The notes under the pieces: generated by a model
What the model was told of the DNA's origin: nothing
Databases searched by the model: none
The model's input: the letters and a program-made list of their open reading frames with translations, nothing else
Assembly (NCBI GenBank): GCA_011364975.1
Contig: RDOE01000001.1
Coordinates: 48,707-112,706, forward strand
Origin: Promethearchaeota archaeon
Lineage (GTDB): Archaea > Asgardarchaeota > Lokiarchaeia > Sigyniarchaeales > SOKP01
Direction of reading: 5' to 3'
Length of the DNA stretch: 64,000 nucleotides
Shown: positions 7,586-43,986 of the stretch, one piece after another
Layout of the letters: each line of letters opens with the position of its first letter
How positions within the stretch are numbered: position 1 is the first letter of the stretch
Translations under genes and position numbers: made by a program

Positions 7586-8206
7586 ATGATCATTAATGAA
7601 GTAGAAGCAACCATTCATAGTAAGATTGTTTATGTAGGTCCTGCGATGTCAGGGAAAACTACTACCTTGAAAGTGCTTTCAGAATATTATAGGGATAAAG
7701 TTGTAAATGATTTTTTGAGTATTGAGAATACATCTGGTAGGACATTATATTTTGATTATCTACTTCTATTTTTTAAGAAGAAAAGATACTCTCTTAAAAC
7801 TCATGTTTATTCTACGACAGGACAAGATTTTTATGCTATTACAAGACCTGATACAATTAGAAACTTAGATGGTGTAGTATTTATTGCAGATTCTGTCGAA
7901 GAAGCATTATCTCGTAATATTTCTTCTTGGAAAGAACTGGAACATTATCTCGGTAATGATTATTTATTTCTTCCCAAAGTAGTAGTATTTAATAAGCAAG
8001 ATTTATCACCCAAATTTGATAAAAATATATTTTTAACCGCTATTAGAAGTTATAAATACACTAATTTTGAAACCACAGAATCAATTGCTACAGAAGGGGA
8101 GGGCGTTATTGAATCATTTAGGATAATATTGAGATTAATATTAGAAACTTCACCTTATTTAAATCCATCTTATCTCAAGCCTAAAAAAAAGCAAGTATTA
8201 ACTTAA
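7586..8206 (+). CDS. Small GTPase, MglA/Ras-superfamily-like
   Basis: P-loop 'GPAMSGKTT', 'YSTTGQDFYAITRPDTIRNLDGVVFIADS' (MglA-like switch II), 'VVFNKQD' (NKxD). Confidence 0.9.
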   Translation: MIINEVEATIHSKIVYVGPAMSGKTTTLKVLSEYYRDKVVNDFLSIENTSGRTLYFDYLLLFFKKKRYSLKTHVYSTTGQDFYAITRPDTIRNLDGVVFIADSVEEALSRNISSWKELEHYLGNDYLFLPKVVVFNKQDLSPKFDKNIFLTAIRSYKYTNFETTESIATEGEGVIESFRIILRLILETSPYLNPSYLKPKKKQVLT

Positions 8207-11929: not shown

Positions 11930-12127
11930 ATGTCATTTGGAATCGAAATTGATAAGGATGCTTGCACTGGTTGTGGTACATGCTACGAGGTTTGTCCAAG
12001 TGAGTGCTTTGGAGAGCCGGAAGGAGGAAAGGTTAACGTTATTGAGGAAAACCGAGATGACTGTGTAGGATGCAGAGCTTGTGAAACTCAATGTCCAGAA
12101 GAAGCTATTACCATTACTGAAGATTAA
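11930..12127 (+). CDS. 2[4Fe-4S] ferredoxin
   Basis: Two clusters 'CTGCGTCYEVCPSECF' and 'CVGCRACETQCPEEAI'. Confidence 0.95.
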   Translation: MSFGIEIDKDACTGCGTCYEVCPSECFGEPEGGKVNVIEENRDDCVGCRACETQCPEEAITITED

Positions 12128-12200: not shown

Positions 12201-14168
12201 TTATTTAAGTATTTTAACATTTTCTAATGGAATCCAACCACGTTCCCCCGTTTCTGAACTAACCCAAGCCCAACCACTTTCTTCCTTTTCAATTGTAAAC
12301 TCTTGATCCTTAAAGGCTGTCATTTCAGTTGCATCATAATCCTTTAGCATTAAAGCTTTTTTCCCGTCTATTTTTATAAAATTTTTAGGGACCCAACCTG
12401 ATTTATCAGAATCAATAATCGCCCAAATCCAACCCGACCATTCAGATTGTTTTTCTTCTACTCTTAAATTATCCCCTTTGTTTAAGATTAAGGGATCAGG
12501 AAATGATGACACGAAATCCTTTATTACTCTACACCGTCTTTTCTTCATTTTCTCTTCAAAATATTCTTTCAACAAGAAATAAGGTAAATCCCCACTTTTG
12601 AGAATTGTATCATGAAAGAACTTTAAATTGAAATTATTACCCATTCTTTCTTCCACTTCCCGTCGTAAATCTGCAATTAGGAGCTTTCCAACGAGATACG
12701 ACAATTGGTATCCTGGAGTTGTTGTCCATCCCACTACCGCTGCTTTAGCTGCTCCCTCTCCCATTTGGAGTATATTCATTAACATCTTACTAGCATCCGC
12801 TATTGATCGTTGCTTACAGTGCAATTGGATATCCAATATGATTTCCATTGCTTCCTGTAATTGCATTCCTGATAATAATTGTTGAGTTTTAATTGGATCA
12901 TGATGAAATCCTTCTTTTAGCATTAATTCTTCACAATAAAGAGCCCATCCTTCAATAGTTTCATAACTTGGGGACATTTCTAACCCTAACAATCGGATGA
13001 GAGGTGCATAAGTGTTATTGCAAGTAAAATCCAGATGATGACCAGGATAGGCTTCATGAGTCATCCAATAAGATATACTTGTATAAGAATGGCGTTCCTT
13101 TTGTGTAGGAGAGATCATAAAAATTCCAGGTTGTTCTCGATTAAAATAAGGAGGCGCATCATAGGCAGCAAGAGCAATGATTGGTATAAGGTGGAGAGGA
13201 GTTTCAATAATAACTAGCTTCTCTTGAGGGATAGTAGCAAGGTCATGATTTTCTATAAATTCTTTTGCTCGCTCTGCTTCACTCCGAGTGTATTCAAGCA
13301 CATTCTCAAACGTCGGTATTAGATCTTCTTTAAAAAACTCTTCAATTCCCTCATTAAGCGTTTTAGTAGGATATCTCTCTTTGAGAATTCGTTTCATTTG
13401 TTTAAATCCAGAGTTAAATAGCTTAGTTCCCTTTTTCATAAGTGTGTTTCGGTCCCAAGGAAGTTTCCTTAAGCTTAATAATTTATCGAATTTTTCAGGT
13501 CCTAAAGCCCAAGCAAATTCATCATTATCTACTGGTAAACTTTTTATCCATTCAATATGGGGCTGGATAACCAAGTTAATCTCTTTAATAGCTTTTAGAA
13601 GTGTATCTTTAAGAGATTCAGCAACTTCTGATGTTTTACTATAAGTTTCAGCCAGAATATGTAAAAATTTAGGAGTTGTTTGTATTTGTTCTAAAGCTAA
13701 ATCTCTCCATACTAGTGGGATCGGAGTCTCATCAAAACGAGATTGAAAATCCTTTAAATAATTTGGTAAATTTGTTAAATGGACTATGAGAGCTTCTGCT
13801 ACATCGTTAGTTGGGCCCTTTCGTTGGAATAAAAGATAAGCAATTTCTTGAAAATACGCAAATCCATTAGGGTCTTTTTTCCATAAGGGAAATGCTTCAT
13901 GCATAAACCGGTTAATATTATGATTGTATTCCATTGCTTTTAGTGAAATTTGGTTTTCGAAATTTAATTTTTCACCGTCTAATTCTTTAATTTCATCAAT
14001 CCATTGACGGAACCATTTAAGATTGTCCTCTATGTGTTCTTTCGTTCCTGATTCTACTACTTTTTCATATTCTTCTTTACCAAATTTGACAGCAATTCTA
14101 GGATTACGCTTAAAGTACTCTTCTATCCCTCTATTGACTAATTTTTCGAATTTTTGGTTCTCATCCAT
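12201..14168 (-). CDS. DUF885-family (M32/M3-like) predicted peptidase with two C-terminal SH3-like domains
   Basis: 'HEAYPGHHLDFTCNN' HExxH-like motif; C-term 'VIKDFVSSFPDPLILNKGDNLRVEEKQSEWSGWIWAII..GWVPKNFIKI' and 'ALMLKDYDATEMTAFKDQEFTIEKEESGWAWVSSETGERGWIPLENVKIL'. Confidence 0.85.
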   Translation of the reverse strand: MDENQKFEKLVNRGIEEYFKRNPRIAVKFGKEEYEKVVESGTKEHIEDNLKWFRQWIDEIKELDGEKLNFENQISLKAMEYNHNINRFMHEAFPLWKKDPNGFAYFQEIAYLLFQRKGPTNDVAEALIVHLTNLPNYLKDFQSRFDETPIPLVWRDLALEQIQTTPKFLHILAETYSKTSEVAESLKDTLLKAIKEINLVIQPHIEWIKSLPVDNDEFAWALGPEKFDKLLSLRKLPWDRNTLMKKGTKLFNSGFKQMKRILKERYPTKTLNEGIEEFFKEDLIPTFENVLEYTRSEAERAKEFIENHDLATIPQEKLVIIETPLHLIPIIALAAYDAPPYFNREQPGIFMISPTQKERHSYTSISYWMTHEAYPGHHLDFTCNNTYAPLIRLLGLEMSPSYETIEGWALYCEELMLKEGFHHDPIKTQQLLSGMQLQEAMEIILDIQLHCKQRSIADASKMLMNILQMGEGAAKAAVVGWTTTPGYQLSYLVGKLLIADLRREVEERMGNNFNLKFFHDTILKSGDLPYFLLKEYFEEKMKKRRCRVIKDFVSSFPDPLILNKGDNLRVEEKQSEWSGWIWAIIDSDKSGWVPKNFIKIDGKKALMLKDYDATEMTAFKDQEFTIEKEESGWAWVSSETGERGWIPLENVKILK

Positions 14169-14332
14169 TATCTTTTCATCTCATAAAAAAATATTGATTT
14201 AAAAAGCAGAGTTCTTTATTTTAGATTCAAACCCATATATACATTAAAGTAAAGATATATTTAAATTTTGTAGAAAAATTAATTTTGAAAGAGAGAAATA
14301 CAAGAAAGGAAATAATACGTTTTATACGAATC

Positions 14333-14356
14333 TTCGTGAAACCTCTCTTTCACGAA
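14333..14356. repeat. Perfect 9-bp inverted repeat (TTCGTGAAA-cctctc-TTTCACGAA)
   Basis: Read directly: ttcgtgaaa cctctc tttcacgaa; lies 3' of the M20 gene and upstream of the DUF885 gene. Confidence 0.75.
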
Positions 14357-14435
14357 ATTTGATGCATATCCTCTTGATATGGTGATATATCTCGAAATAT
14401 TATTTAGATGTTCTAAAAAAAGAAAGAGTTTTACT

Positions 14436-15725
14436 TCAAAGATCAGCACATAAAAAAATTATTAATTCCTTTATATAAATTAAAACTTCTTTTAATCGAA
14501 TATTCTCGTTTACACCATGTTCATTAGAACCAGTGTTTCCTAATCCATGGAAAATTATATCATCGGTTTTAAGGATCTCTGAAACGAATCCCATATCGGT
14601 AGAACCAGAAGCTCCTATTATTCTAATCTCATCTTCACTGATTTTTTGAACTTCCATCATAACTTTCTTTAATCGTGTAATATCTGGAGCATTTGGATTA
14701 GTTACCATTGGAGGATACCCCAGATTAAAAGCCACTTTTACATTGAGTAAACTACTTTTAATTTTACCTTTTTCAATAGCTTCCATAATTTCCTTTATCA
14801 CATCATCAATGTTTTCATCAGGAATATATCGTCTATTAATTGTTAGAGTACAAAGGCCTGGAACAATGTTAGCTTTGGTTCCTGAATGGATAATATCCAA
14901 ATTAAACATAGGATACATGTTTCTCTTCTCTCCAGTTCCCAAACGTGGTAATCCGGGAATATTTTTGCTTTCACGCTTCTCAACAATCTTTTTTAATTTC
15001 ATCAATTCATTAAGAATAGGAATAGTCTCTTCTAAAGCATTAATCCCCATAAAATTCATTCCAGAATGACAACTTCTCCCTATTGACTCTACTACCACGT
15101 TTATAGCTCCAGCAGTGCCGATAGGAATAACAGGGATTGTGACACCTTCCATACAGAAGACTGTACCTTTAATATACCCTTTTTCAGCAAGATATCTAAC
15201 TCCTGGCCAAACACCTATTTCCTCATCTGTACAATTTACTATGGTAATATTATACTTTGGAGTTAGATGCAATTTTTCCATAATTTGTAAGGCTAAAATT
15301 AAACACACCATAGCCCCTTTCATATCAGATGTTCCTCGCCCGTAAATTTTTCCACTTTTAATCATTGTCGCTTCAAAAGGAGGGAAACGCCATTTTTCTT
15401 TTCCATCATTAGGAGCAGGAACTACATCCATATGACCATAAAACGTTATATCTTTATCTTGATTATAATTTTTGGTGGCAATTAAATTAATTCTCGGTCC
15501 CACTAAAGGTTCAGGAGTTTGTTTTACGAGATCTTCTGGGACAATTACCTCTTCCAAGGAAAATCCTAACTTTTTAAAATAAGTGGTTAATATATCCACA
15601 TATTCACGATATGAGTTCCCAGGAGGAACAGTTGTATCAATAGCAATTAAACTTTTCATTAGATTCATAATATGATCTCTTGCTAAATTATCCACTTCAA
15701 GATAAATCTCGTCTAAATTTACCAT
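14436..15725 (-). CDS. M20-family metallopeptidase/deacylase (ArgE/DapE-like), paralogue 1
   Basis: 'DITFYGHMDVVPAP..WRFPPFEATMIKSGKIYGRGTSDMKGAMVCLILAL', 'NCTDEEIGV'. Confidence 0.92.
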   Translation of the reverse strand: MVNLDEIYLEVDNLARDHIMNLMKSLIAIDTTVPPGNSYREYVDILTTYFKKLGFSLEEVIVPEDLVKQTPEPLVGPRINLIATKNYNQDKDITFYGHMDVVPAPNDGKEKWRFPPFEATMIKSGKIYGRGTSDMKGAMVCLILALQIMEKLHLTPKYNITIVNCTDEEIGVWPGVRYLAEKGYIKGTVFCMEGVTIPVIPIGTAGAINVVVESIGRSCHSGMNFMGINALEETIPILNELMKLKKIVEKRESKNIPGLPRLGTGEKRNMYPMFNLDIIHSGTKANIVPGLCTLTINRRYIPDENIDDVIKEIMEAIEKGKIKSSLLNVKVAFNLGYPPMVTNPNAPDITRLKKVMMEVQKISEDEIRIIGASGSTDMGFVSEILKTDDIIFHGLGNTGSNEHGVNENIRLKEVLIYIKELIIFLCADL

Positions 15726-15810
15726 TTTAGTATAACCCTTCTATAATGTTATTTTTATAATTTTAAAAAAGTATTATTGCAAAATGAAATCTCACTCTGC
15801 TTAAAAAACC

Positions 15811-17097
15811 TTAGAAATCCCCACAAAGAAAAGCAAGAATTTCCTTGATGAATTTTTTCATATCCTTGATTCTAATATTTTCATTAACACCATGAGTATT
15901 TGATCCACCATATGTTACCCCCCGAATTATAATATTCTGAGTATTTAATAATTGAGCTACAAACCCAACATCAAACGTAATAGCCATACCTTGTTTCCGA
16001 ATTTTATTTTCTGGAATATTATGAACCTTTATGATGATATTTTTAATTTTTTGGACATCAGGGGAATTAATATCAACTTTAAATGAAGGATAAGAATAAT
16101 CAAACCGAACTTTGACATCCAGTGCATTACTCTTCTCTTTACCTCTCTCTATTGCATCCAATATTTCCTTTTTAACGTCTTCATATTTTTCATCAGGGAT
16201 AATTCTCCTATTTATAATTAAATGACAGATTCCGGGGATGATGTTAGATTTTTGGCCAGCTTTTATTACGTCTAAGTTTAATAGAGGAGTTAAATTCTTT
16301 TTTTGAGCGACTATTGAATCTGGAAACCCTGGGATATCCTTACTTTGGCGAGATTCCACATTTTTCTTCAGTTTTAGTAGTTCAACTAAGATAGGAACCA
16401 TAGCTTCCAAAGCGTTAACACCCATAAAGCTTAATCCTGAATGAGAACTTCGTCCTATAGTTTCAATTTCAACATCTAAATTTCCTGCAGAGCCCATAAG
16501 TAGGATAGGATCAACTGAAAAATCCATACAAAAAATTGCTCCTTTCGCATAACCCTTTTCTGCCAAGTATCTGGCGCCGGGGTAAAATCCAAGTTCTTCA
16601 TCGGTACAACTTAGTACATTGATATTATAGTTCGGAACAATGTTAAAATCTTTTATAATTCGAAGTGCTAAAATTAAGCAAACCATTGCTCCTTTGTTAT
16701 CGCCAACACCTCGCCCAAAAATTTTTCCACCTTTTAATGTAGGTTTAAAGGGAGGGAATTTCCATTTATCATCTCCTTGATCAACCGCTGGAACAACATC
16801 CATGTGACCAAAAAATGAAACTTCTTGTTTTTGCCCAAAATCTTTTGTTGCTACAAGATTAATTCGAGAGCCTTCAATATTGTAGGGTATTTGGTTTATC
16901 AAATTATTTGGAAGGATAACCTCTTCTAATGTATATCCTAATTCTTCAAATATTGGACAGATTGCATCAATATATTCCCTATATGAATTTCCTGGTGGAA
17001 CAGTAGTGTCAATGCTACATAATGTTGTTATTAATGACATAATAGTCTGTTTATCGATCTTATCGACTTCTTCAAAAAGATTTTCTAAGCTAATCAT
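15811..17097 (-). CDS. M20-family metallopeptidase/deacylase (ArgE/DapE-like), paralogue 2
   Basis: 'VSFFGHMDVVPAVDQGDDKWKFPPFKPTLKGGKIFGRGVGDNKGAMVCLILALRII'; strongly similar along its length to 14436..15725. Confidence 0.92.
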   Translation of the reverse strand: MISLENLFEEVDKIDKQTIMSLITTLCSIDTTVPPGNSYREYIDAICPIFEELGYTLEEVILPNNLINQIPYNIEGSRINLVATKDFGQKQEVSFFGHMDVVPAVDQGDDKWKFPPFKPTLKGGKIFGRGVGDNKGAMVCLILALRIIKDFNIVPNYNINVLSCTDEELGFYPGARYLAEKGYAKGAIFCMDFSVDPILLMGSAGNLDVEIETIGRSSHSGLSFMGVNALEAMVPILVELLKLKKNVESRQSKDIPGFPDSIVAQKKNLTPLLNLDVIKAGQKSNIIPGICHLIINRRIIPDEKYEDVKKEILDAIERGKEKSNALDVKVRFDYSYPSFKVDINSPDVQKIKNIIIKVHNIPENKIRKQGMAITFDVGFVAQLLNTQNIIIRGVTYGGSNTHGVNENIRIKDMKKFIKEILAFLCGDF

Positions 17098-28478: not shown

Positions 28479-29612
28479 ATGATCCGATTTAAAGGGATTG
28501 ACATTTTTAGAGGTCTTTGTATTTTTTACATGACTTTCGGGCACATGCTACATTGGTGGCTTTCAAAAACAGATTTTTGGCTTTATGAGTTTCTATGGAA
28601 TATTGGGGCGCCTATTGGGGGTGGAGGATTTTTATTAGTCTCTGGTTTAAGTGCTTCACTCTCATATAGAAAGCAAATTGCAAAAGCACAAAATTCTAAT
28701 GAATATGATATAAAAAGAGCTAGAAATGAATACTTGTTGAGAGCTGTAGAAATTTTTATAATATCTACAATTTGGAATACGTTTGGTTATCTTTATTTAG
28801 GATTACCAGGAATTTGGTTATGGTTTGTGCTACAAACAATATCGGTTTCTCTTTTAATGGCATGGCCTTTATTTAAAACTACTAAATCGTTCAGGCTATT
28901 AATTTGCTTCTGTTTTTGGATAGGAAACGAAATAATTCTTGGTTTATTATCACCTCATTCTGGTGAAGAGAATGTTCTTGGGGTTTTCTATTTTATTTTA
29001 TATAACAGTCCAGAACAAAATGTAATTTTAGGATATTTTCCATTTCTTCTTTTAGGAACCATTTTGGGGGATATCTTATTTGAAGCAAGCAATATTAAAG
29101 ATCCAACTGCACAATCAATTTTTTTAAAGGCTAAATTCATTAAAACTAATGGATTTAGCGGATTAGTTTTAATTTTATTAGGGATTTTTCTAAATTATCC
29201 TGCTTTTATGAATAAAGAGACTTTCTCCTCTCACATGTTCATAGTTGGGATTGAACTCATTATTATTTCATTCTTGATATATCTAAAAGATCTTAAAAAT
29301 TATAGGTTTAGAAAGAAATTTACTTTTTTTGAGTATTATTCATACTACTCCTTTACGATTTTTCTTCTTCACCATCTTCTATTCTTTTTATTTCAACCGC
29401 AGTTTAATGCTTTGGAAATTTGGTTATACATTGTCCCAATCATGAGTTTGTGGACGATATTATTTCGGTTTATTTATAAAAAGGTGGGGAAATATGCTTC
29501 TGTTAAATTTATATTTAACAAAATAGCAGTTAATTTAGCTAAAAAAATGGAAACAATTAGTCTTGGTAATTTGAGGAAGTTAAAATCTATAAAGAAAATT
29601 GAGTTTGTTTAA
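28479..29612 (+). CDS. DUF1624/HGSNAT-like multi-pass membrane acyltransferase, paralogue A
   Basis: 'RFKGIDIFRGLCIFYMTFGHMLHWWLSKTDFW', 'GGGGFLLVSGLSASLSYR', 'YYSYYSFTIFLLHHLLFF'. Confidence 0.82.
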   Translation: MIRFKGIDIFRGLCIFYMTFGHMLHWWLSKTDFWLYEFLWNIGAPIGGGGFLLVSGLSASLSYRKQIAKAQNSNEYDIKRARNEYLLRAVEIFIISTIWNTFGYLYLGLPGIWLWFVLQTISVSLLMAWPLFKTTKSFRLLICFCFWIGNEIILGLLSPHSGEENVLGVFYFILYNSPEQNVILGYFPFLLLGTILGDILFEASNIKDPTAQSIFLKAKFIKTNGFSGLVLILLGIFLNYPAFMNKETFSSHMFIVGIELIIISFLIYLKDLKNYRFRKKFTFFEYYSYYSFTIFLLHHLLFFLFQPQFNALEIWLYIVPIMSLWTILFRFIYKKVGKYASVKFIFNKIAVNLAKKMETISLGNLRKLKSIKKIEFV

Positions 29613-29690
29613 ATTTTTTGAACTCTGTGATTTTTTTAAATTGAATCTAATTTATTTTATTGAAAAAAGTTAAAAAGTGAAAATGAGTAA

Positions 29691-30812
29691 TTGAAACTTA
29701 TGAAATTTAAACCCAGAAGATTTAAGAGTATAGATATATTCCGAGGGATGTGTATGGCTTGGATGTTTTTAGGCCATTTACTCGATTGGTGGCTTAAACC
29801 TGAATACTTTTTCATTAGAAATTCAGCTCACATGTTATTAGATTCAATTGGAGCTTCTGGGTTCTTATTTATTTCAGGAGTGAGTATTACCTTATCTTAT
29901 AGGAACCAGATGTATAGAGTTGAAACGTTAAAGAGAATCTCATATTTTCGAATTAGACTTTCATATTTCATCCGTAGTTTATTATTACTTTTGATAGCCT
30001 TTTTATATAATACTGCTATTGCAGTTTCAATAAAAAATCTTTCTTGGATTTGGAGTTGGTTTATTTTGATGACTGCTGCCTTTTCTTTGATGATGATGTG
30101 GCCACTTTTTAAAACTCCAAAACTTGTTAGGATATTAATAGGATTTTTTTTATGGTTCTTGAGTGCTTATCTTTATAGTATTTTATCCCCTTATCAAGGC
30201 AACTCAAATTTATCAGGTATTTTCTACCATATCCTTTTTAACACTGTCGATCAAGATCCCTTTATAAATTTCTTCTCATTTTTCTTGTTTGGAACTATTT
30301 TTGGAGAAGTTCTCTCATCTTCTAATTTTGAAGCAGATAATGAAAAATTTAAAAGATATTTAAATAAACATATCATCAAGCCTTCCTTATTAATCGGTCC
30401 TTTGTTAATTTTAACCGGAGTCGCCCTAGTTTTCCCTAGTTTTCTAATAAGAAGTAGTCTATCTTGGTTAATCTACACTTTAGGAATTGATATTACTATT
30501 TTAGTGATATTGATTTTTTTTGAAGAAAATGGATTTTTCAATACTAAGAAAAGTTATAGATTTTTGTTTTACTACTCATATTATTCATTTACTGTTTATT
30601 TAGGACATCATCTATTATTCTTTGTTTGTGTCAATTGTTTTAATGCTGTAAGCATATGGATCGCCGTTATTTTGACATTCATTTTATTTGGTTTAATCTT
30701 AAAACAGATATATAAACTATGGGGTTGGAAAGCGTCAATAAAGTCAATAATTGGCCGTTTAAGTGCTTATCTCGCTAAGAGAATTGATTTAAGTAGAAAT
30801 AATTCCTTCTAA
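29691..30812 (+). CDS. DUF1624/HGSNAT-like multi-pass membrane acyltransferase, paralogue B
   Basis: 'RFKSIDIFRGMCMAWMFLGHLLDWWLKPEYFF', 'GASGFLFISGVSITLSYR', 'YYSYYSFTVYLGHHLLFF'. Confidence 0.82.
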   Translation: MKLMKFKPRRFKSIDIFRGMCMAWMFLGHLLDWWLKPEYFFIRNSAHMLLDSIGASGFLFISGVSITLSYRNQMYRVETLKRISYFRIRLSYFIRSLLLLLIAFLYNTAIAVSIKNLSWIWSWFILMTAAFSLMMMWPLFKTPKLVRILIGFFLWFLSAYLYSILSPYQGNSNLSGIFYHILFNTVDQDPFINFFSFFLFGTIFGEVLSSSNFEADNEKFKRYLNKHIIKPSLLIGPLLILTGVALVFPSFLIRSSLSWLIYTLGIDITILVILIFFEENGFFNTKKSYRFLFYYSYYSFTVYLGHHLLFFVCVNCFNAVSIWIAVILTFILFGLILKQIYKLWGWKASIKSIIGRLSAYLAKRIDLSRNNSF

Positions 30813-30890
30813 TTTTTGAATTAAATTTATATCGTTATTATTATTTAATATGCTTACTGTTAAAATAATGAATATAGAGACGGGGAATTC

Positions 30891-32018
30891 ATGGAGAGAA
30901 TTAATAGCATAGACAGTGTTCGTGGCATGTGTATGTGGATAATGATCTACGGCCACATGTTAGATTGGTGGATAAATCCAGCAGATATATGGTTTAGAAA
31001 TTGGTTATATGCATTCTTAGAACCAATTGGAGCCACAGGATTTCTATTTGTTTCAGGAATTAGTACAAGTTTAGCATTTAGGAGTAGTTACATAAAAAGA
31101 GAGACTTCAAATAACTTCAATGTTAAATTAACTAAATATTCTTATTTCTTTAGAGCTTTTTTGATTCTTTTAATTGGTTTCGTTGTTAACTCATTTTCTC
31201 TTTTAATGTTGAAGGGTTCTATTTTTGATATTTGGAGTTGGCTTGTCTTACAAACTATTGCTATCTCATTAATTTTTTCTTGGCCATTCTTAAATAAATC
31301 TAAGCTTTTTCGAATAATTTTAGGACTCTCCCTTATATCAGTAAATCAAATCATACTAACTTACCTTGATCCTTTTAAAGGACAATTTAATCTTTATGGG
31401 GTATTATTTCATTTTTTATTTAATCCGCTAAGTCAATATATAATTTTATTATATTTTGGTATCTTTTTAATCGGTACTGTTCTAGGTGAACTAATATTCA
31501 ATATTAATATCTCAAAGACCCAACAGGAAAGATTATATAACTTTAAAAACAAACTTTTTAAGAAATCCTTATTATTTGGAGGTATTTCAATAGGATTTGG
31601 ATTAATTTTTGCTTTTCCGAATTTCTTAATTTTAAATACCTTATCTTCCATTATCTATTCTATGGGAATAATATTAGTGTTGATAACATTACTAATTTAT
31701 AGAGAATTAGCTGAAAAAATTAAGCTTAAAAGAAGTTATCGATATCTTTATTTTTATTCTTATTATTCTTTTACTATATATTTAGGACATTATGTTATCT
31801 ACTCCTTATTTTTGGATCAACTTAATTGGATAATATTCATGATTCTAGTATTTGGTGTTGCAAATGCAATTACTACCTTTTTATTAAGAACAATATATAT
31901 AAAATTAGGGAGTAAATTTTCTTTGAAAACGGGGATAAATACAATGAGTTTTATGTTAGCTATGAAAATTGTAAAAAGAAAACAGCATAAAACAATTAGT
32001 CTCGCAACAGATATATAG
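30891..32018 (+). CDS. DUF1624/HGSNAT-like multi-pass membrane acyltransferase, paralogue C
   Basis: 'RINSIDSVRGMCMWIMIYGHMLDWWINPADIWF', 'GATGFLFVSGISTSLAFR', 'FYSYYSFTIYLGHYVIYS'. Confidence 0.82.
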   Translation: MERINSIDSVRGMCMWIMIYGHMLDWWINPADIWFRNWLYAFLEPIGATGFLFVSGISTSLAFRSSYIKRETSNNFNVKLTKYSYFFRAFLILLIGFVVNSFSLLMLKGSIFDIWSWLVLQTIAISLIFSWPFLNKSKLFRIILGLSLISVNQIILTYLDPFKGQFNLYGVLFHFLFNPLSQYIILLYFGIFLIGTVLGELIFNINISKTQQERLYNFKNKLFKKSLLFGGISIGFGLIFAFPNFLILNTLSSIIYSMGIILVLITLLIYRELAEKIKLKRSYRYLYFYSYYSFTIYLGHYVIYSLFLDQLNWIIFMILVFGVANAITTFLLRTIYIKLGSKFSLKTGINTMSFMLAMKIVKRKQHKTISLATDI

Positions 32019-34258: not shown

Positions 34259-35308
34259 TTAATCTGAGATATATTCCATTCCTTCATAAGATTTTTTTTC
34301 GGATCTCATTGGATTACAATACATGTAATGATCTCCGCCTAAATCTATTTTTACAGGGTTCCTTAAACCACATCCTTCATGATCAGATACTTCTGGACAT
34401 CTTGGATGAAATGCACATCCAGAGGGAGGGTTTATAGGACTAGGTACATCTCCTTTAAGAATAACTCGATTTATTCTAGATTCTGGATCGAATGTAGGTC
34501 TTGCCGATAAGAGGGCTTTTGTATAAGGATGTGTAGAATTATAGAATACTTCTTCTATATTTCCGCCTTCGACAAATTTCCCTAGATACATTACTTCGAT
34601 ACGATCACCTATATGTTGAATAACACTTAAATCATGTGTTATAAAAAGATAGGATAAGTCGAATTCTTTTTGTAAATCCTTCAGTAGATTTAAAATTTGA
34701 GCTTGAACAGATACATCAAGAGCTGAAGTTGGTTCATCTAGTATTATAATTTCTGGATTACAAGCTAATGCTCGAGCAATTACAATCCTTTGTTTTTGTC
34801 CACCAGAAAATTCATGAGGATATCTATCCAAATGTTCATTTTTCATAGAAACTGTTTCAAGGAGTTCTAAGACACGTTTTCGAATTTCTCTTCTCTTTTT
34901 CATTCCCATAAGCAGACGTAGTGGTTCTCCCACAATATTTACTACTTTCCATCTGGGATTAAGGGAAGAGTCAGGATCTTGAAAGACCATTTGAATTTTT
35001 TTCCTATATTCTTTTGTAAAATTGTTGTCTATTCTTTTTCCTTTATACCAGATTTCCCCTGCTGTTGCTGGAACAAGGTTTAATATAGTATTTCCAATAG
35101 TAGTTTTACCGCATCCACTTTCACCTACTAATCCAAGAGTCTCTCTTTTATAAAGATTAAAAGATACTCCGTCGACTGCTCTAACTTCTCCAATTTTTCT
35201 TTTAAGAATTCCACCATAGATTGGATAGTATGTTTTTAAATTCTTTACTGAAAGAATTATATCTTCAGATTTATGTGAATCAATCGGTATTTCTTCACTT
35301 ATTGTCAT
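34259..35308 (-). CDS. oppF: Oligopeptide/dipeptide ABC transporter ATP-binding protein (OppF/DppF)
   Basis: Walker A 'GLVGESGCGKTT', 'YPHEFSGGQKQRIVIARALACNPEIIILDEPTSALDVSVQAQ', C-term 'PPSGCAFHPRCPE'. Confidence 0.95.
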   Translation of the reverse strand: MTISEEIPIDSHKSEDIILSVKNLKTYYPIYGGILKRKIGEVRAVDGVSFNLYKRETLGLVGESGCGKTTIGNTILNLVPATAGEIWYKGKRIDNNFTKEYRKKIQMVFQDPDSSLNPRWKVVNIVGEPLRLLMGMKKRREIRKRVLELLETVSMKNEHLDRYPHEFSGGQKQRIVIARALACNPEIIILDEPTSALDVSVQAQILNLLKDLQKEFDLSYLFITHDLSVIQHIGDRIEVMYLGKFVEGGNIEEVFYNSTHPYTKALLSARPTFDPESRINRVILKGDVPSPINPPSGCAFHPRCPEVSDHEGCGLRNPVKIDLGGDHYMYCNPMRSEKKSYEGMEYISD

Positions 35309-35340
35309 TTTCTTTTCCTCTTTAAGTTTTAAGTTAGTTT

Positions 35341-36612
35341 TTATACTTTACCTGATAATTCAAACTCTTCTTCTTCCCACTCATATTTAGGTGAGTCTTT
35401 ATATTCTGGATCATATAAGTGGCAAGCAATATAATATTTATCTGCTATTTCGAGAAACCTTGGTTTAACTTTATCGCATACCTCAAGTCTAAAATCACAT
35501 CTTGGATGAAATCTACAACCTGAAGGCGGATAAATTAGATTTGGGACCATTCCTCTAATAGTCTTTAACTTTTGATCCCTTTTTTCTATACTTGGAATAG
35601 CACCAATTAGTCCTTGAGTATATGGATGTTTTGGTTTTTTAAATAATTCAACTGCTGTTGCATATTCAACAATATTACCGCTATACATTACCGCAACGCG
35701 ATCACACAAATCTGCAATAATGCCTAGGTCATGAGTGATCATCAAAATAGAAGTCTGAAATCTGTCTTTTAAATCTTTCATTAAATCAAGAATTTGAGCT
35801 TGAATTGTAACATCGAGCGCAGTAGTAGGCTCATCAGCGCATAGAAGGACGGGATTACAGGTTAATGCCATAGCAATCATAACTCTTTGTCGCATTCCAC
35901 CACTTAGTTCGTGAGGATATCTTTTTAAAATCCCCTTTGCATCAGCAATTCCGACTTCATTAACTATTTTTTCAGCCTCTTCCAAAACTATAGTTTTTAT
36001 AGTTATAGCGCCTTTCATCTTTTCCTTAATAGATTCAATTTTCTCATTGATTTCATTTATTTCTTCAGTGTTTAATCTTTCCGCTTCATCTTTTAGCTTT
36101 TTTTGAAGTTCTCTTACTTCTTTCATCCGTACTCTTCTGGTCTCCCTACGTTCTTGTAAAACACCTTTTATTCTGTCCTTTTGATGTAAAAGGAATACTT
36201 CTCCAATTTGATTTCCCACCGTCATAACTGGATTAAGAGAATTTAAAGGATCTTGGAAAATCATAGTAATTTTATTTCCACGATAATTCCTCATTTCTTT
36301 TCTACTTAATCCAACTAGATTTTTGCCATTTAGGGAAATAGTACCCTCCATAATTTTTCCAGGAGCTCTAACTAATCCAAGGATTGAAAGTGCAGTTACT
36401 GATTTTCCGCAACCAGTTTCTCCAACTAGTCCAAGAACTTCATTCTTGTAAATATCAAAAGAAACGCCGTCAACAGCCTTTACAATCCCCTCTTCTGTAA
36501 AGAAGTAAGTTTTTAAATTTCTTACTTCAATAAGAGGTTTCCTTATCTCTTCCTCTTTTTCTTCAAATTCTTCAATACTTTCTGCTTCCTTTCCATTTTC
36601 TGAATCGATCAT
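35341..36612 (-). CDS. oppD: Oligopeptide/dipeptide ABC transporter ATP-binding protein (OppD/DppD) with helical insertion
   Basis: 'GLVGETGCGKSV', 'YPHELSGGMRQRVMIAMALTCNPVLLCADEPTTALDVTIQAQ', 'PPSGCRFHPRC'. Confidence 0.95.
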   Translation of the reverse strand: MIDSENGKEAESIEEFEEKEEEIRKPLIEVRNLKTYFFTEEGIVKAVDGVSFDIYKNEVLGLVGETGCGKSVTALSILGLVRAPGKIMEGTISLNGKNLVGLSRKEMRNYRGNKITMIFQDPLNSLNPVMTVGNQIGEVFLLHQKDRIKGVLQERRETRRVRMKEVRELQKKLKDEAERLNTEEINEINEKIESIKEKMKGAITIKTIVLEEAEKIVNEVGIADAKGILKRYPHELSGGMRQRVMIAMALTCNPVLLCADEPTTALDVTIQAQILDLMKDLKDRFQTSILMITHDLGIIADLCDRVAVMYSGNIVEYATAVELFKKPKHPYTQGLIGAIPSIEKRDQKLKTIRGMVPNLIYPPSGCRFHPRCDFRLEVCDKVKPRFLEIADKYYIACHLYDPEYKDSPKYEWEEEEFELSGKV

Positions 36613-36646
36613 CGATTAAATCCTTTGTAGTTTATTTTAAACAATT

Positions 36647-37648
36647 CTATAAATTCCTAAGACGTGGATCAAGAGCATCTCTTAAACCATCCCCAACCAA
36701 CATGAATCCAAGAACAGTTATTAATATCATAAGACCCGGCCATAGGGATGCATAAGGCGCCATAACGATATGCCCTCTGGCAATATCGATATCTCGACCC
36801 CATTCTATTAAATTTACATCGCTATACCCTAAAAAGGCTAATCCCGCAAGGCTTAATATTATTCCTCCAATATCAAATGTAAATGATATAATTATAGGTT
36901 GTATACAATTGGGCAAGATGTGTCTAAACATTATTCTCCAATTTCCAGCACCCGCAACTCTCGCCGCTTCAACATAAGGTAAGGCTCTTGCTTGAAGAAC
37001 AGATCCCCGAATTAATCGTGAATAATATGGTATACCTAAAATACCATATGCAAGCATGATATATTCCATTCTTTGACCCCAAATAGCAATAAATACCATC
37101 GCTAAAATTAATCCAGGAAATGCTAAGAAGATATCAATAATTCTCATGATAATAGAATCAATCCAACCCCCATAGTAGGCAGCGACAACCCCCACAATAA
37201 CTCCAAAAATAACACTAAACGTAATTGCAGGGAGAGCAATCGTCAATGAGGCTCTCGCGCCGTATATCATACGTGATAATACATCTCTTCCAAATTCCGT
37301 TTGACCGAGAGGATAATTTATTGAGGGAAGCCCCCACGAATTACCTGGGAGTCCATTAGCTTGTTCAAATGTATAAGGAGCGATCCATTCAGGGAATACC
37401 GCTAAAGTTACTACAACAAATACAATCCCTATACCTGTAAGGGTAAGGACAGATTTGAGCCTTCGTATAAATTTTCTTTTACTTATTGATTTTTCATATT
37501 CAAGTTCTCTTAAAGATAACTCATCTATTCGTGCTCCAGGTATTAATAGAAATTTCAGATTTGAAAATAGCCATTTTAGCATTGTTTTAATTAGGTTTTC
37601 TTTTTTTTCTTCTTTTTCCAATCTTGTTTCATATACTTGTTCTGTCAT
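36647..37648 (-). CDS. oppC: Oligopeptide/dipeptide ABC transporter permease (OppC/DppC)
   Basis: 'LGQTEFGRDVLSRMIYGARASLTIALPAITFSVIFGVIVG', 'EAARVAGAGNWRIMFRHILPN'. Confidence 0.95.
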   Translation of the reverse strand: MTEQVYETRLEKEEKKENLIKTMLKWLFSNLKFLLIPGARIDELSLRELEYEKSISKRKFIRRLKSVLTLTGIGIVFVVVTLAVFPEWIAPYTFEQANGLPGNSWGLPSINYPLGQTEFGRDVLSRMIYGARASLTIALPAITFSVIFGVIVGVVAAYYGGWIDSIIMRIIDIFLAFPGLILAMVFIAIWGQRMEYIMLAYGILGIPYYSRLIRGSVLQARALPYVEAARVAGAGNWRIMFRHILPNCIQPIIISFTFDIGGIILSLAGLAFLGYSDVNLIEWGRDIDIARGHIVMAPYASLWPGLMILITVLGFMLVGDGLRDALDPRLRNL

Positions 37649-37666
37649 TTTTTACCAACTCATATT

Positions 37667-38683
37667 TTAATATCTAATTCTTGGATCTATAAATCCATAT
37701 ATTAAATCTATTCCGAGATTTATTACGATAAAGACAATTGTGGTTAAAAATACAATTGCATTAAGGAGCCAATAATCGGTGTTTTGTATAGCTTGGATCA
37801 AAGCTTCACCCATACCATGTAAATTGAAGGTCGTTTCAGTTAAAACAGCACCTGAAAGTAACCCACCAAAATTCAATCCAATGACAGTGACCGTCGGGAT
37901 CAAAGCATTTTTACGCGCGTGCGTGTTAATCACATCTCTTTCTTTACATCCTTTGGCTCTAGCCGTTCTAACATAGTCTTGTTCTAAAACTTCTAACATA
38001 CTAGAACGTGTCTGTCTGGTAATTGAAGCAATTGTAATGAAGGATAGGCAAAAGACGGGTAAAATTAAATGATGTAAGTAGTCTGTAATTAAATACATTC
38101 TTCCTGATAATAAGGAATCAAATATTCGGTTGAGAGTAATCACTGGGGGATCACCAATTCCCGCAGTTTTATAATTTGCTGTTGGAAACCAATCAAGTTG
38201 ATACGCTAGAAAATATTGCAAAATGAGGCCCATCCAAAAAACTGGAATCGATACACCAATTAATGCAATACCCCGTAAAACCGTATCTTTCCATCTATTT
38301 CGATTAGTTGCTGAAATAACTCCCGTTTTCAATCCGATTATTGAAGCTATTATAATGGCAAAAATTGCGATATCAAAAGTGCGAGGAAACCTTTCCATAA
38401 CAATTACCCAGACGGGTTGTCCTTGAGCAAGGACAAACGAAGTCCCCCAATCTCCCACAAACAATCTACCAATATATAGGAAATACTGCTGTATGATTGG
38501 TAAATGTAAACCAAGTCTTTCATATGCGATTCGATAATCTTCGGGGTCAAATCTATCTGGTAAAGACGCTAAAACAGGGTCACCAGGCATTAATCGTGAT
38601 AATATGAAGGTTATTGTCAATACCCCAAATAAAACAGGGACCGCTGCTAATACTCTCCTAAGAATATATTTAAGCATACTCAT
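37667..38683 (-). CDS. oppB: Oligopeptide/dipeptide ABC transporter permease (OppB/DppB)
   Basis: 'YILRRVLAAVPVLFGVLTITFILSRLMPGDP', 'DYVRTARAKGCKERDVINTHARKNALIPTVTVIGLNFGGLLSGAVLTETTF'. Confidence 0.95.
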   Translation of the reverse strand: MSMLKYILRRVLAAVPVLFGVLTITFILSRLMPGDPVLASLPDRFDPEDYRIAYERLGLHLPIIQQYFLYIGRLFVGDWGTSFVLAQGQPVWVIVMERFPRTFDIAIFAIIIASIIGLKTGVISATNRNRWKDTVLRGIALIGVSIPVFWMGLILQYFLAYQLDWFPTANYKTAGIGDPPVITLNRIFDSLLSGRMYLITDYLHHLILPVFCLSFITIASITRQTRSSMLEVLEQDYVRTARAKGCKERDVINTHARKNALIPTVTVIGLNFGGLLSGAVLTETTFNLHGMGEALIQAIQNTDYWLLNAIVFLTTIVFIVINLGIDLIYGFIDPRIRY

Positions 38684-38742
38684 AAAGTTTTAAATCACCC
38701 ACAATTTTTTAATATTTTTATAATATTCATTAATTTTTTTAT

Positions 38743-39222
38743 TTAAAGTTCGATTGTTTTAATTCTTGCGACAAATTCTTTATACTTTTGCTTCGCAAAA
38801 GCACCCAGGATTGCACTTACTAAATTTATGCCTAAGAGTGTAAGTATTGTGATATAACTCTCGATACTGCCAAAGTATAATGCAAACATTTCACCAGTTA
38901 ATTGAAAGAAATCGCGTTGAAAACTATTTATAAATATATACCAGATCCAAGACTCAATAGTGATAACCGCAATAAGCCAAATACTATTTTTAATCCCATA
39001 TTCAAAGAATTGTTCCCTAAAAGACATATAAAAAACAATTAGAACCAGAATTATCAGAGATAAAATAGAGGCTGGATTAAAAAGCACTTGATAAAGAAAT
39101 AGAACTCTATTCCCTATCGATTTTTCATAGATATTGCTAATATATCCAAAGAATACAAAATGAATCATCAAAACGGCAAGTACGAAATTTCCCTGCCTAC
39201 CTATGTCAATCTTATTTCTCAT
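38743..39222 (-). CDS. Hypothetical membrane protein (about 4 TM)
   Basis: Hydrophobic segments; overlaps the upstream ORF (39219..40100) by 4 nt (ATGA-type coupling). Confidence 0.6.
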   Translation of the reverse strand: MRNKIDIGRQGNFVLAVLMIHFVFFGYISNIYEKSIGNRVLFLYQVLFNPASILSLIILVLIVFYMSFREQFFEYGIKNSIWLIAVITIESWIWYIFINSFQRDFFQLTGEMFALYFGSIESYITILTLLGINLVSAILGAFAKQKYKEFVARIKTIEL

Positions 39223-40100
39223 AATAAATGCTCTAAATTTATTTTACTTAATTTAAAATTTTTTATAGAAAAATCTTGGTTATTTTTTTCAATATTTGAT
39301 CTTTTATTAATTATTCCTTTGTTGTTCCAAATCATAGTATCTATAGGCGCTTGGTTTTCTTCGTCTAACAATTTTTTGTTGTAAGCAAAGCAATCAAAAA
39401 GATCGTCGTATATTAAATAAGGCACGAATGTCAATTTATTAACTTTATTCTTTTTTTTATGTTCTACTTCGATGGGAATTATATCGGGGTAATATTTCCC
39501 TTTTTTTTCACGATATAACTTAACTTCTTTTAGTTGTCCCCTTTCAATTATTTGAATCTTGTTGTTCTCTATTTTTTCCTTAAAATATTTAATATTAGTT
39601 TCACAATAATCAAGGTTTTTTAAAATATATTCTTCTGATCCAATTTTAATGCTTTCATTTTCGATGGAGATATAAAATTTTAAATATTCACTGATTAAGA
39701 AATAAAAATCTTGCCTCAAACTTGGGATTTCGGATTCTAGATTGATAGAGCTATCAAACCATTTTAATAACGTGGCAAAACTAAGCTCCCGATATGTAAT
39801 TTCCTTATATTTTCTTTTGCCATAAATTATTAAATTCTTTAATCCTTCAATATAAAATTTAGTTAAATTAAAAGATAAGTCTAGCTCGTCAAGAGTATTT
39901 TCAAGAGCATTCAAATTAGGGATTAGGATAAAGATCGATTCCCCATTGGAAAGTCTGTCTATTCTCATAGGAAGAGGCATAATAGGAGTTCTAAATAAAT
40001 CAGTAGAAAAAATATCAAAATAAAATAACGTAGGGGCAAGATCGTTTTTAAAGGATTTTAATTTTGCAGGAGGACTTGCTACTCCTAATCTTGGACACAT
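39219..40100 (-). CDS. Hypothetical protein (293 aa) in the transporter locus
   Basis: Long ORF co-directional with opp genes, coupled to 38743..39222; no family recognised. Confidence 0.6.
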   Translation of the reverse strand: MCPRLGVASPPAKLKSFKNDLAPTLFYFDIFSTDLFRTPIMPLPMRIDRLSNGESIFILIPNLNALENTLDELDLSFNLTKFYIEGLKNLIIYGKRKYKEITYRELSFATLLKWFDSSINLESEIPSLRQDFYFLISEYLKFYISIENESIKIGSEEYILKNLDYCETNIKYFKEKIENNKIQIIERGQLKEVKLYREKKGKYYPDIIPIEVEHKKKNKVNKLTFVPYLIYDDLFDCFAYNKKLLDEENQAPIDTMIWNNKGIINKRSNIEKNNQDFSIKNFKLSKINLEHLL

Positions 40101-40174
40101 AATAGTATTATATTATTAGATATTTTAACAAAATACAAAAAAAAAAAAAATTTAATTTTTGCTCTTATCCCAGT

Positions 40175-41923
40175 TTATTGGGCATAGAGCGTTGCATCAT
40201 CCCAATAAACAGGATAGAAGTAAGCTCTACCCATAGCATTAGAGGGATAACCTTTTACTTTAATGTTCCAGGCATCATTATTGATTCCAGTATAACCATA
40301 AGCCCATGGCATATCCTCTTCAACAAGAAGTTGTTGGATTCTGTCATAGTAGCCTTGTCTTGTAGGTCCATTTGGCTCTAATAGTGCAGTTTCCATTAAT
40401 AACTGAACGTTGTCATCTAAGAGAAGTGGGTCTCTGCCAGCTTCAATTGCCGATAAATAACCATTATATTTCGCACCGTTCGATGCAACAGATCGATTGG
40501 TGAATAATGGGTTTATGTAGTTACTTGGGTCGTTGTAATCGGGGATCCATCCGAGCCAGTAAATTTGAACTTGATCTCTAAATCGACCACCTAATTCGTA
40601 TAAGCTGTAAATGAAGTTCGCCCAAGTACCACCGGCATCTTCAACTGCAACACCTATCATACCTAAATTATCAGTTAACACGCTTAACATATTTTCACGC
40701 ATGTCATTTCCGATATTATAGGTATAGTTAAATGTGGCAAATGGAGTAGTTGAGGCGGCAGTTGTCCATTGAGCATCAGTCCAAGCCATACTTCCATAAC
40801 CCATGCCAACCATAAGTTCTCTTGCTTTCGTTACATTGAAAGTAGCAACATTATAGCCGTCATTGGCGTATGTTATACCATTTGGAATAGGTGATTTCAA
40901 TCGGACCGCTTGCCCTTCTAACAATTCCTCAATTATGAAGGAATAGTTAAGAGCGTATGAGAACGCTTTTCTGAAGGTGGTATTAATCCAGAAGGAGTTC
41001 ATACCAAGATATTGTACACTTAATCCAGGGTTCGGATCAGTATATAGCTCAACATCTGGCTCTGCGGCAAATGTAGATAACATTGAGCCCATAGGATCTA
41101 ATAAAATATCAATATCCTCAGAAAGTAATGCATTATTTCTGATTTGAGCATCATTGATAACGGAAAAGATTAAAGTATCAATTTTTGCTCTTGGTCTATA
41201 ATAATAATCCCATGCGTGAAATCGGATTTCAACACCAGCTTCATACCCATCATAGACGAATGGTCCAGTTCCTACTAAATCACCTGTTGCAGTATCAAGT
41301 ACTTCATCAAAAGGTGTTGCGGTAGGCGAAACCATATACATAGCATTAAAGCTAAGAATGGCTTCAATAGGACCATATTGTACATTACAGGTTATATTTA
41401 GACTATAATCACCAGTTTTAGTCACTGAATCGATAATGTTAATAAAGTCATCAGTGGCAGGGTCATAATATTCATACAATTCAGCAGCTTTAGCTAAACC
41501 AAGGTCCATTAAATTAGCATAGCGGTCAAGATTCCATTTTGCAGCTGTAGCGTCAAATTTGGTACCATCATGAAACCATACATCTTGTCTTAAATCAATT
41601 TGATATACTGGTTTTGAACCTGTAAGATCCCAGCTACCTTTAGCAGCCGCAAGCGCGGGAACAATAGCCAAATCTGGATCCGTTAAATTATAAAGGTACA
41701 AACCTTCACAGACTTGATCATGAACATTAGAGGAAGCACTATCCCATGCATCCATTGGATCGAGATCTGCGGGTCCTGACATTGTGCCAAAAACAAGCGT
41801 TACGCCCAAATCTGGAGGTTGTTGAGCAGTAGGCAAGAGAAGAAGGATGCCATTTCCTGCTATGGACGCAACCGCTAGCACCGCTAAAATAATGATTGCC
41901 CAGTCTTTTTTTTCCAAATCCAT
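40175..41923 (-). CDS. Solute-binding protein family 5 (peptide/nickel-type), membrane-anchored, paralogue 1
   Basis: N-terminal TM 'WAIIILAVLAVASIAGNGILLLLP', 'LRQDVWFHDGTKFDATAAKWNLDR', 'YWLGWIPDYNDPSNYINPLFTNRS'. Confidence 0.93.
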   Translation of the reverse strand: MDLEKKDWAIIILAVLAVASIAGNGILLLLPTAQQPPDLGVTLVFGTMSGPADLDPMDAWDSASSNVHDQVCEGLYLYNLTDPDLAIVPALAAAKGSWDLTGSKPVYQIDLRQDVWFHDGTKFDATAAKWNLDRYANLMDLGLAKAAELYEYYDPATDDFINIIDSVTKTGDYSLNITCNVQYGPIEAILSFNAMYMVSPTATPFDEVLDTATGDLVGTGPFVYDGYEAGVEIRFHAWDYYYRPRAKIDTLIFSVINDAQIRNNALLSEDIDILLDPMGSMLSTFAAEPDVELYTDPNPGLSVQYLGMNSFWINTTFRKAFSYALNYSFIIEELLEGQAVRLKSPIPNGITYANDGYNVATFNVTKARELMVGMGYGSMAWTDAQWTTAASTTPFATFNYTYNIGNDMRENMLSVLTDNLGMIGVAVEDAGGTWANFIYSLYELGGRFRDQVQIYWLGWIPDYNDPSNYINPLFTNRSVASNGAKYNGYLSAIEAGRDPLLLDDNVQLLMETALLEPNGPTRQGYYDRIQQLLVEEDMPWAYGYTGINNDAWNIKVKGYPSNAMGRAYFYPVYWDDATLYAQ

Positions 41924-42228
41924 ATTATAATCACTTAATATATTTAAAGTTTTTTAACGAATTTTTTATTAGATTTGTTGTTAAATAACTACTTAATTAG
42001 GAATACTTATAAGTTTTTTCATTTTTTATCCTTAATTCCATGATCTGTTAAAAAATGGACATGAAATTTTATTGTAAACGAGAATTGGATGAGGTAAATT
42101 AACGAAAGATATTTTTTTTAAAGTACCTAAAACTTAGTGATTTATTAAATTTTAATGATTTTTTTAATAATTTGAAAGAAAATAAAAAAAAAAAGAATTA
42201 TATTTTGAATTTATTTAACACTATCAAT

Positions 42229-43986
42229 CTATTGGGAATAAAGCTCTGGAAGCTTCCAATAGCATGGATAGAAGTATACTTTTTGCATCGCATTTCCTGG
42301 ATGACCGGCTAAATCTTTATTATAGCAATCGTTATTTTTACCAGTGTATCCGAAGACCCATGGCATATCCTCTTCAACTAATAGTTGTTGAATTCTATCA
42401 TATTGTGCTTCTCTTGATACAGGATCTGTATTTAAAATTGCAGCTTCCATTAAAAGTTGCACATTATCGTTGATATCAAAAGGATCTCTGCCTGCTTCTA
42501 TCGCAGATAAATATCCGTTATAAATTACACCGTTAGAAGCGGTGGATCGATTTGTAAATTCTGGGTTCACGTAATTGCTAGGATCGTTATAATCCGGAAT
42601 CCATCCAAGCCAGAATATTTGGTTCATTTCTCGATATAAGCCAGCGAGATCGTAAGTACTTAATATATATTGCGCCCATGTGGTACCCGCATCTTCAACC
42701 TCAATACCAACAGCTCCAAGATTAGCTCTTAGTAAGATGAGAAGATTTTCACGAATTGGATTTCCGATGTTGTAAGTATAGTTAAATGTAGCAAAGGTTG
42801 AAGCTTCCCAAGCAGCATCATCAGTCAATGATAATGATGCTCCAAAACCCATACTTTGCATGATTTGCCTTGCTTTGGTAACATTATAGGTTGCTGCATT
42901 AAAGCTGTCATTAGCATACGTGATACCATTTGGAATATTAGATTTTAATCTAACGGCTTGATCTTGCATTAGTTCATGGATAAGGAAGGAATAGTTGAAA
43001 GCGTATGAAATAACTTTTCTGAAGGTAGAATTTATCCAATAGTTAACCATGCCTAAGTATTGAACGCTTAAACTTATACCAACTTGTTCTCGGATAATAT
43101 CCGGCTCAGCGTCAAATGTGGATAACATTGCTGGGGTAGGATCATCTAGAAAATCAATATCACCAGAAAGCAATGCATTATTTCTTATTTGGGCATCATT
43201 GATAACGGAAAAGATTAATGTATCGATTTTAGCTCTTGGTTTATAGTAATAATCCCATGCGTGAAATCGGATTTCAACACCAGCTTCATAACCATCATAA
43301 ACAAATGGTCCAGTACCTACTAGGTCTCCTGAAGCGGTGTCAAGAACATCATCAAATGGCGTTGATGTGGGTGAAACCATATACGCCGCATTGAAACATA
43401 AGAGTGGTTCAAACGCACCATATGGTGTATTAAGCACAAATTTTAAAGTATAATCATCAACAACTTCCGTTCTGTTAATGATAGGCGCCATAATAGCGGC
43501 AGTTTCACCAGTTGTTATGTTAATCACATCAGTTCTTACATAATATTCAAATAATTCTCCTGCTTTTGCTAAACCATGCTCCATTAAATAAGCTAATCGA
43601 TCAAAGTTCCATTTGGCAGCAGTAGCGTCAAATTTGGTACCATCGTGAAACCATACATCTTGTCTAAGTTCAACAGTATAGTTATTACTACTCCAAACAC
43701 CATAATCCGCTGCCAATTTAGGAATTATTTTTAAATTAGGATCAGTAAGATCATATCCAAATAAACCTTCACAAACCTGATCTTGTACATCAGCGGAAGC
43801 ACTATCCCATGCATCCATGGGGTCCAAATCTGCAGGCCCATCTGAGGTTCCAAAAACAAGAACAATTCCCAAATCTGGAGCAGTAGGAGCATTAGGAAGG
43901 ATTAAAAGTACACCATTACCGGCGATTGAAGCTACAGCCAAGATTGCTAAAATAATAATTGCCCAATCTTTTTTTTCTAAATCCAT
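42229..43986 (-). CDS. Solute-binding protein family 5 (peptide/nickel-type), membrane-anchored, paralogue 2
   Basis: Near-identical N-terminus to paralogue 1; 'LRQDVWFHDGTKFDATAAKWNFDR', 'FWLGWIPDYNDPSNYVNPEFTNRS'. Confidence 0.93.
   Translation of the reverse strand: MDLEKKDWAIIILAILAVASIAGNGVLLILPNAPTAPDLGIVLVFGTSDGPADLDPMDAWDSASADVQDQVCEGLFGYDLTDPNLKIIPKLAADYGVWSSNNYTVELRQDVWFHDGTKFDATAAKWNFDRLAYLMEHGLAKAGELFEYYVRTDVINITTGETAAIMAPIINRTEVVDDYTLKFVLNTPYGAFEPLLCFNAAYMVSPTSTPFDDVLDTASGDLVGTGPFVYDGYEAGVEIRFHAWDYYYKPRAKIDTLIFSVINDAQIRNNALLSGDIDFLDDPTPAMLSTFDAEPDIIREQVGISLSVQYLGMVNYWINSTFRKVISYAFNYSFLIHELMQDQAVRLKSNIPNGITYANDSFNAATYNVTKARQIMQSMGFGASLSLTDDAAWEASTFATFNYTYNIGNPIRENLLILLRANLGAVGIEVEDAGTTWAQYILSTYDLAGLYREMNQIFWLGWIPDYNDPSNYVNPEFTNRSTASNGVIYNGYLSAIEAGRDPFDINDNVQLLMEAAILNTDPVSREAQYDRIQQLLVEEDMPWVFGYTGKNNDCYNKDLAGHPGNAMQKVYFYPCYWKLPELYSQ

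Follow-up and report, generated by a model that had tools for sequence, protein, structure and literature searches.

The 64,000-nucleotide stretch of Lokiarchaeal DNA analysed here, referred to as the window, contains a gene in which a DUF885 metallopeptidase-like domain is joined to a tandem pair of SH3 units (Table 1). This gene is probably a lineage-specific fusion of an acquired DUF885 gene with a resident SH3 adaptor pair that would now tether the peptidase. The fusion is a recent one-off, present in one genome only, a metagenome-assembled draft, and it is a new architecture built of known domains.

Architecture of the fused gene

Table 1. Features of the fused gene and its surroundings (positions in the window)
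Feature	Position	Strand	Basis or remark
Small 4Fe-4S ferredoxin, left-hand syntenic anchor	11930..12127	+	read from sequence; adjoins SH3 gene in G016
Fused gene, DUF885 metallopeptidase-like domain and tandem SH3	12201..14168	-	655 aa
SH3 repeat 2, residues 604-654	12207..12359	-	second SH3_2 stretch and model strands
SH3 repeat 1, residues 545-600	12369..12536	-	SH3_2 stretch 545-600
Junction, Met541, start codon kept from the once separate SH3 gene	12546..12548	-	alignment at the join
DUF885 domain, residues 23-535	12564..14102	-	Pfam PF05960, E 4e-61
EGWALYCEE motif, residues 406-414	12927..12953	-	aligned and conserved in orthologues and solved DUF885 structures
HEAYPGHH, putative zinc/catalytic motif, residues 371-378	13035..13058	-	intact; also in orthologues
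Leader region, probably carried in with DUF885	14169..14435	-	alignment with the DUF885 leader of G042
Palindrome/hairpin GTGAAA-N6-TTTCAC	14335-14354		within the leader region
M20-family peptidase, right-hand syntenic anchor	14436..15725	-	same neighbour in G016; family by sequence inspection

The fused protein contains a full-length PF05960 domain, with 3u24, 3o0y and 3iuk as PDB relatives, and shares with the DUF885 family the HEA-PGHH and EGWA-Y-E motifs; HEAYPGHH lines up with HEA-PGHH / HEA-PGHY of 3o0y and 3u24. By this motif the DUF885 part may be a zinc-dependent peptidase, for which EGWALYCEE would be the putative third metal ligand. The solved relatives are titled lipoprotein or uncharacterised protein, whereas the window protein has an SH3 tail and no signal peptide was apparent at its N-terminus (MDENQKFEKLVN). 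The two parts are presumably expressed as one protein.

For the classification of the tail, Pfam calls were judged against the curated cut-offs. On the 119-residue tail alone SH3_2 scored best (E 5.7e-16, 58.4 bits, cut-off 21.8) and matched in two stretches, followed by SH3_9 (E 2e-9, 37.5 bits, cut-off 30) and SH3_1 (E 2.5e-7, 30.6 bits, cut-off 22.9). SH3_16 barely exceeded its cut-off, and SH3_4 as well as the bacterial SH3b profile SH3_3 (21.7 bits, cut-off 27) stayed below theirs. SH3_2 was also detected in all 31 relatives, and the SH3 assignment far exceeds chance. The best 60 PDB matches found with phmmer bear eukaryotic-type SH3 names, with the SH3 domains of yeast Sla1 and Pex13 at the top (E 6e-6 to 9e-6). 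The original prediction of two consecutive SH3 units fused to a DUF885 peptidase is thus borne out by the two SH3_2 stretches and by two barrels in an AlphaFold2 model, and its view that the tail is of eukaryotic type rather than SH3b holds in the profile comparison across SH3_1, SH3_2 and SH3_3. The range of 12201-12600 given for the two units stands for approximately 12201-12548, the remainder being the C-terminus of DUF885.

Close DUF885 proteins (67-74% identity) were found in 5 of 97 related genomes, and all five terminate around residue 544, where the tail would start; four of them (L067-L070) end in EEKIKNL directly before the stop codon, and that of G018 ends a few residues further on. 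Absence of the tail from orthologues had been named beforehand as evidence against the prediction. All five lack it, so the fusion is not a conserved DUF885 architecture, and the original interpretation is supported in part.

The tandem-SH3 family and its predicted fold

In a profile search the tandem SH3 pair was found in 47 of 228 Asgard genomes. Apart from the tail, the matches are mostly separate ORFs of ~116 residues, many of them starting with MKKK.C, and the tail aligns with such a complete stand-alone protein. Among the 228 genomes only the window's copy (G000) lies within a 659-residue frame; other pair-bearing frames longer than 250 residues occur in G086, G162 and G192. Searches of bacterial plasmid records with tblastn gave copies aligned from end to end, again mostly stand-alone, in Rahnella, Listeria, Bacillus, Vibrio, Moritella, Sinorhizobium, Pseudoalteromonas, Curtobacterium and others. 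Their usual annotation is SH3 domain-containing protein or ligand-binding protein SH3. Beyond Asgard archaea the family thereby extends to Pseudomonadota, Bacillota and Actinomycetota. The tail shares with these small proteins its entire length, the repeat order, two tandem repeats separated by hardly any linker and the invariant Y, E, W and P residues; it differs from the mostly stand-alone ORFs of ~110-120 aa by its fusion to DUF885.

In a phylogeny built from 57 sequences, those from bacteria group together and the base is not resolved. The closest sequence to the window tail is L123 (55% identity), a placement that is not strongly supported. The tail lies nearest to SH3 proteins from other genera, again without resolved support, so that the residency of the SH3 gene is argued from synteny. 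On the bacterial relatives and the tree, and judged from sequence, the tail is a member of a prokaryotic family and not an Asgard-specific eukaryote-like invention. Because these nearest relatives form a prokaryotic tandem-SH3 family that is also bacterial, the eukaryotic-type sequence does not imply a link between Asgard archaea and eukaryotes.

Several further arrangements of the pair were observed. NYN-SH3-SH3 proteins (NYN being a PIN-like nuclease family) are encoded in G086 and G162, two genomes of another Asgard family (L063 1839-2717, L113 5978-6928), the NYN domain of the G086 fusion being detected with E 4e-21. In G192 (L112 1521-2393) the pair precedes a nucleoside deoxyribosyltransferase-like domain, and in a Pseudomonas aeruginosa plasmid protein (L080 3980-4759) a C39-peptidase-like domain, both family calls having been made by eye. 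Two bacterial copies (L079, L076) lie amid small unrelated genes (GNAT-type, deaminase, hypothetical), which recalls mobile gene-cassette arrays. Conserved partner genes were sought around stand-alone SH3 genes, and the neighbourhoods differ between groups. A phage origin of the pair was considered and rejected, the sole matches in the phage collection being unannotated records named Listeria phage that are probably host DNA. In NCBIfam no family reached its cut-off for the pair, and titles and abstracts of the open-licence literature held no paper evidently on Asgard or Lokiarchaeota SH3 domains or on 'ligand-binding protein SH3'.

An AlphaFold2 model of the tail built from 31 sequences consists of two SH3 barrels (pLDDT 90.6). 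Each predicted barrel superposes in Foldseek on single SH3 domains, at best with 1.2-1.9 Å and a target TM reaching 0.91. A further match is to 1tuc, a circularly permuted spectrin SH3. The alignments with single SH3 targets of ~60-70 residues span 113-122 columns. This splitting suggests that the predicted pair is interdigitated, each barrel being assembled from pieces of both repeats: the RT loop and first strand of one repeat would complete the barrel of the other, and the reverse. The split pattern returned in a full-length model from a different alignment, in which there is no linker between the last DUF885 helix and the first SH3 strand; the DUF885 part of that model is poor (mean pLDDT 60.5), and the domain arrangement is not readable from it. 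STAC and Grb2, tandem SH3 structures whose barrels are separate, fit the tail model only to ~14-17 Å; the barrels predicted for the tail exchange segments, unlike those of STAC. A possible precedent is the interdigitated double Tudor of JMJD2A/KDM4A, in which two SH3-fold barrels share strands between the repeats and bind methyl-lysine; the strand sharing is as predicted here, while the sequence family is Tudor and not SH3.

Covariation between first and last strands was compared with random blocks (Neff ~31). The swapped pairings ba1-be2 and ba2-be1 lie at the 99th and 85th percentile, the unswapped pairings near the 4th. The difference was positive in 300 of 300 bootstraps and shrinks among Asgard rows alone, and one of the leading covarying pairs, 58-70, mostly distinguishes bacterial from archaeal sequences. 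Covariation thus weakly favours the swapped pairing, as support and not as proof.

The residues Y611, E615, W592, P594, W633, G644, W645 and P647 are invariant in all 57 sequences and W580 is conserved in 56; mapped by eye onto c-Src, the conserved residues correspond to the groove Tyr, the RT-loop acid, the Trp and the Pro of SH3 domains. Although Sla1 SH3-3, Pex13 and Eps8 are the best PDB sequence matches, the tail differs from eukaryotic SH3 domains in lacking the conserved first ALYDY Tyr, which is Lys in the window and K/Q/E/R across the family, and in having Asn650 for the last groove Tyr in repeat 2 (Phe597 in repeat 1). At two near-invariant family positions the window copy departs as well, with Asp621 for Gly and Ala583 for Cys. 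The pair would be an old prokaryotic stand-alone adaptor whose conserved Tyr/Glu/Trp/Trp/Pro groove probably binds peptides. A search for proline-rich ligands, proposed with the original prediction, gave no lead, as PxxP and class I/II motifs occur in the 58 window ORFs at the frequency expected from shuffling. A wider reading is possible and is put forward tentatively: as a plug-in adaptor of interdigitated fold, the tandem SH3 pair would be widespread in prokaryotes, present alone or fused to NYN nuclease, DUF885, nucleoside-deoxyribosyltransferase-like or C39-like domains and serving SH3-mediated recruitment in bacteria and Asgard archaea.

Origin of the fusion and alternative explanations

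The window is collinear with the same-genus genome G016 on both sides of DUF885. In G016 the block runs from ribosomal genes over a ribokinase-like gene and others to the ferredoxin, the SH3 pair, the M20 peptidase and a PepD-like peptidase, and the slot between the M20 gene and the ferredoxin holds only a 116-aa stand-alone SH3 gene. G007, of the same genus, has at the corresponding locus a broken SH3 remnant (L126 700-834), where the collinear block stops close to the end of the contig. Between the window DUF885 and that of another genus, g8, 43% of synonymous sites differ (dS 0.63), compared with 59-76% in 20 syntenic comparisons with G016. Being less diverged than its surroundings, DUF885 is younger in the lineage than its neighbours, which indicates lateral arrival.

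The leader aligns with that of the G042 DUF885 gene with a score of 146 (best of 100 shuffles 38), while it resembles the G016 leader at the hairpin only. GTGAAA-N6-TTTCAC also precedes DUF885 in G042 and G050, and an imperfect version precedes the SH3 gene of G016. It occurs in ~7-13 copies per Lokiarchaeal genome versus 0-1 for the reversed control, and the copies are mostly intergenic, many just past stop codons or between converging genes. These positions led to the rejection of a regulon or operator reading and favour an intergenic hairpin, perhaps a terminator or a small repeat.

At the join, the DUF885 genes read GAA GAA AAA AT(A/T) AAA AAT, in most with the stop one codon later, stand-alone SH3 genes read (n)AAA ATG AAA AAG or similar, and the window reads GAA GAG AAA ATG AAG AAA. 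A recombination event within these matching A-rich stretches that kept the ATG of the SH3 gene as Met541 would explain the in-frame fusion. A DUF885 metallopeptidase gene would thus have been acquired laterally with its own leader and inserted between the M20 peptidase gene and the resident small tandem-SH3 gene; recombination would have joined its end to the SH3 start codon in frame, whereby the last few DUF885 codons and the stop were presumably dropped. In the resulting protein the pair would follow directly after the last DUF885 helix and would most likely tether a cytoplasmic peptidase, either to a partner or to substrate peptides.

As the fusion is found in one genome only, an accidental neutral event, in which DUF885 merely lost its stop codon and the SH3 pair became a passenger, is a real alternative, and conservation does not prove use. 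The recent arrival of DUF885, the complete SH3 ORF with its own Met and the missing linker between the DUF885 helix and the first SH3 strand agree with it, and translation from the retained ATG at 12546-12548 may still yield a separate SH3 protein; the frames and motifs in both parts are nevertheless intact, and we regard a purely neutral fusion as rather unlikely. That the join is an assembly or sequencing artefact between unrelated genes is highly improbable. The draft genome consists of 200 contigs, its contamination being estimated at 6%, but the collinearity with G016 on both sides means that a mis-join would require two internal breaks, DUF885 is present once in the genome, and the genes meet in frame at the SH3 start codon.

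The tail could also be thought of as an SH3b-like anchor by which a secreted peptidase binds the cell wall or surface, as in bacterial NlpC/P60 enzymes. SH3_16, the profile of bacterial dipeptidyl-peptidases, reached its cut-off, if barely, and some dipeptidyl-peptidase VI and endolysin SH3b structures are among the Foldseek matches. Against these stand the far better scores of SH3_2, SH3_9 and SH3_1, the failure of SH3_3 and an N-terminus without apparent signal peptide; moreover, archaea are not known to have the usual peptidoglycan ligand. Such an anchor is therefore very unlikely. A recruiting or localising role of the tail, as originally proposed, is plausible, and in the preferred reading of a functional fusion the SH3 pair most likely tethers the peptidase or feeds it peptides. 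The neighbourhood, with two M20 peptidases, a PepD-like dipeptidase and an oligopeptide ABC transporter (families by inspection), is consistent with peptide use.

Other features of the window were noted in passing. The two tandem M20-type peptidase genes at 14436-17097, compared with one in G016, represent a local duplication. Three tandem paralogous multi-pass membrane proteins of ~375 aa are encoded at 28479-32018; at 34259-43986, genes for an oligopeptide-type ABC transporter precede those for two paralogous substrate-binding proteins. A small GTPase-like protein (7586-8206) adjoins the ribosomal gene block; the collinear parts of G016 and G007 lack a counterpart.

Significance for SH3-based recruitment

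SH3 domains are the textbook recruitment module of eukaryotes. The present analysis points to true SH3-type pairs as an old prokaryotic protein family whose members mostly stand alone. One Lokiarchaeon illustrates how insertion and in-frame recombination may have coupled such a pair to an enzyme, the unfused state being preserved in a relative. The interest lies mainly in this prokaryotic family of tandem SH3 proteins and in the interdigitated fold predicted for it, which, if fold and ligand were confirmed, would offer a simple non-eukaryotic system for asking how SH3-based recruitment arose.
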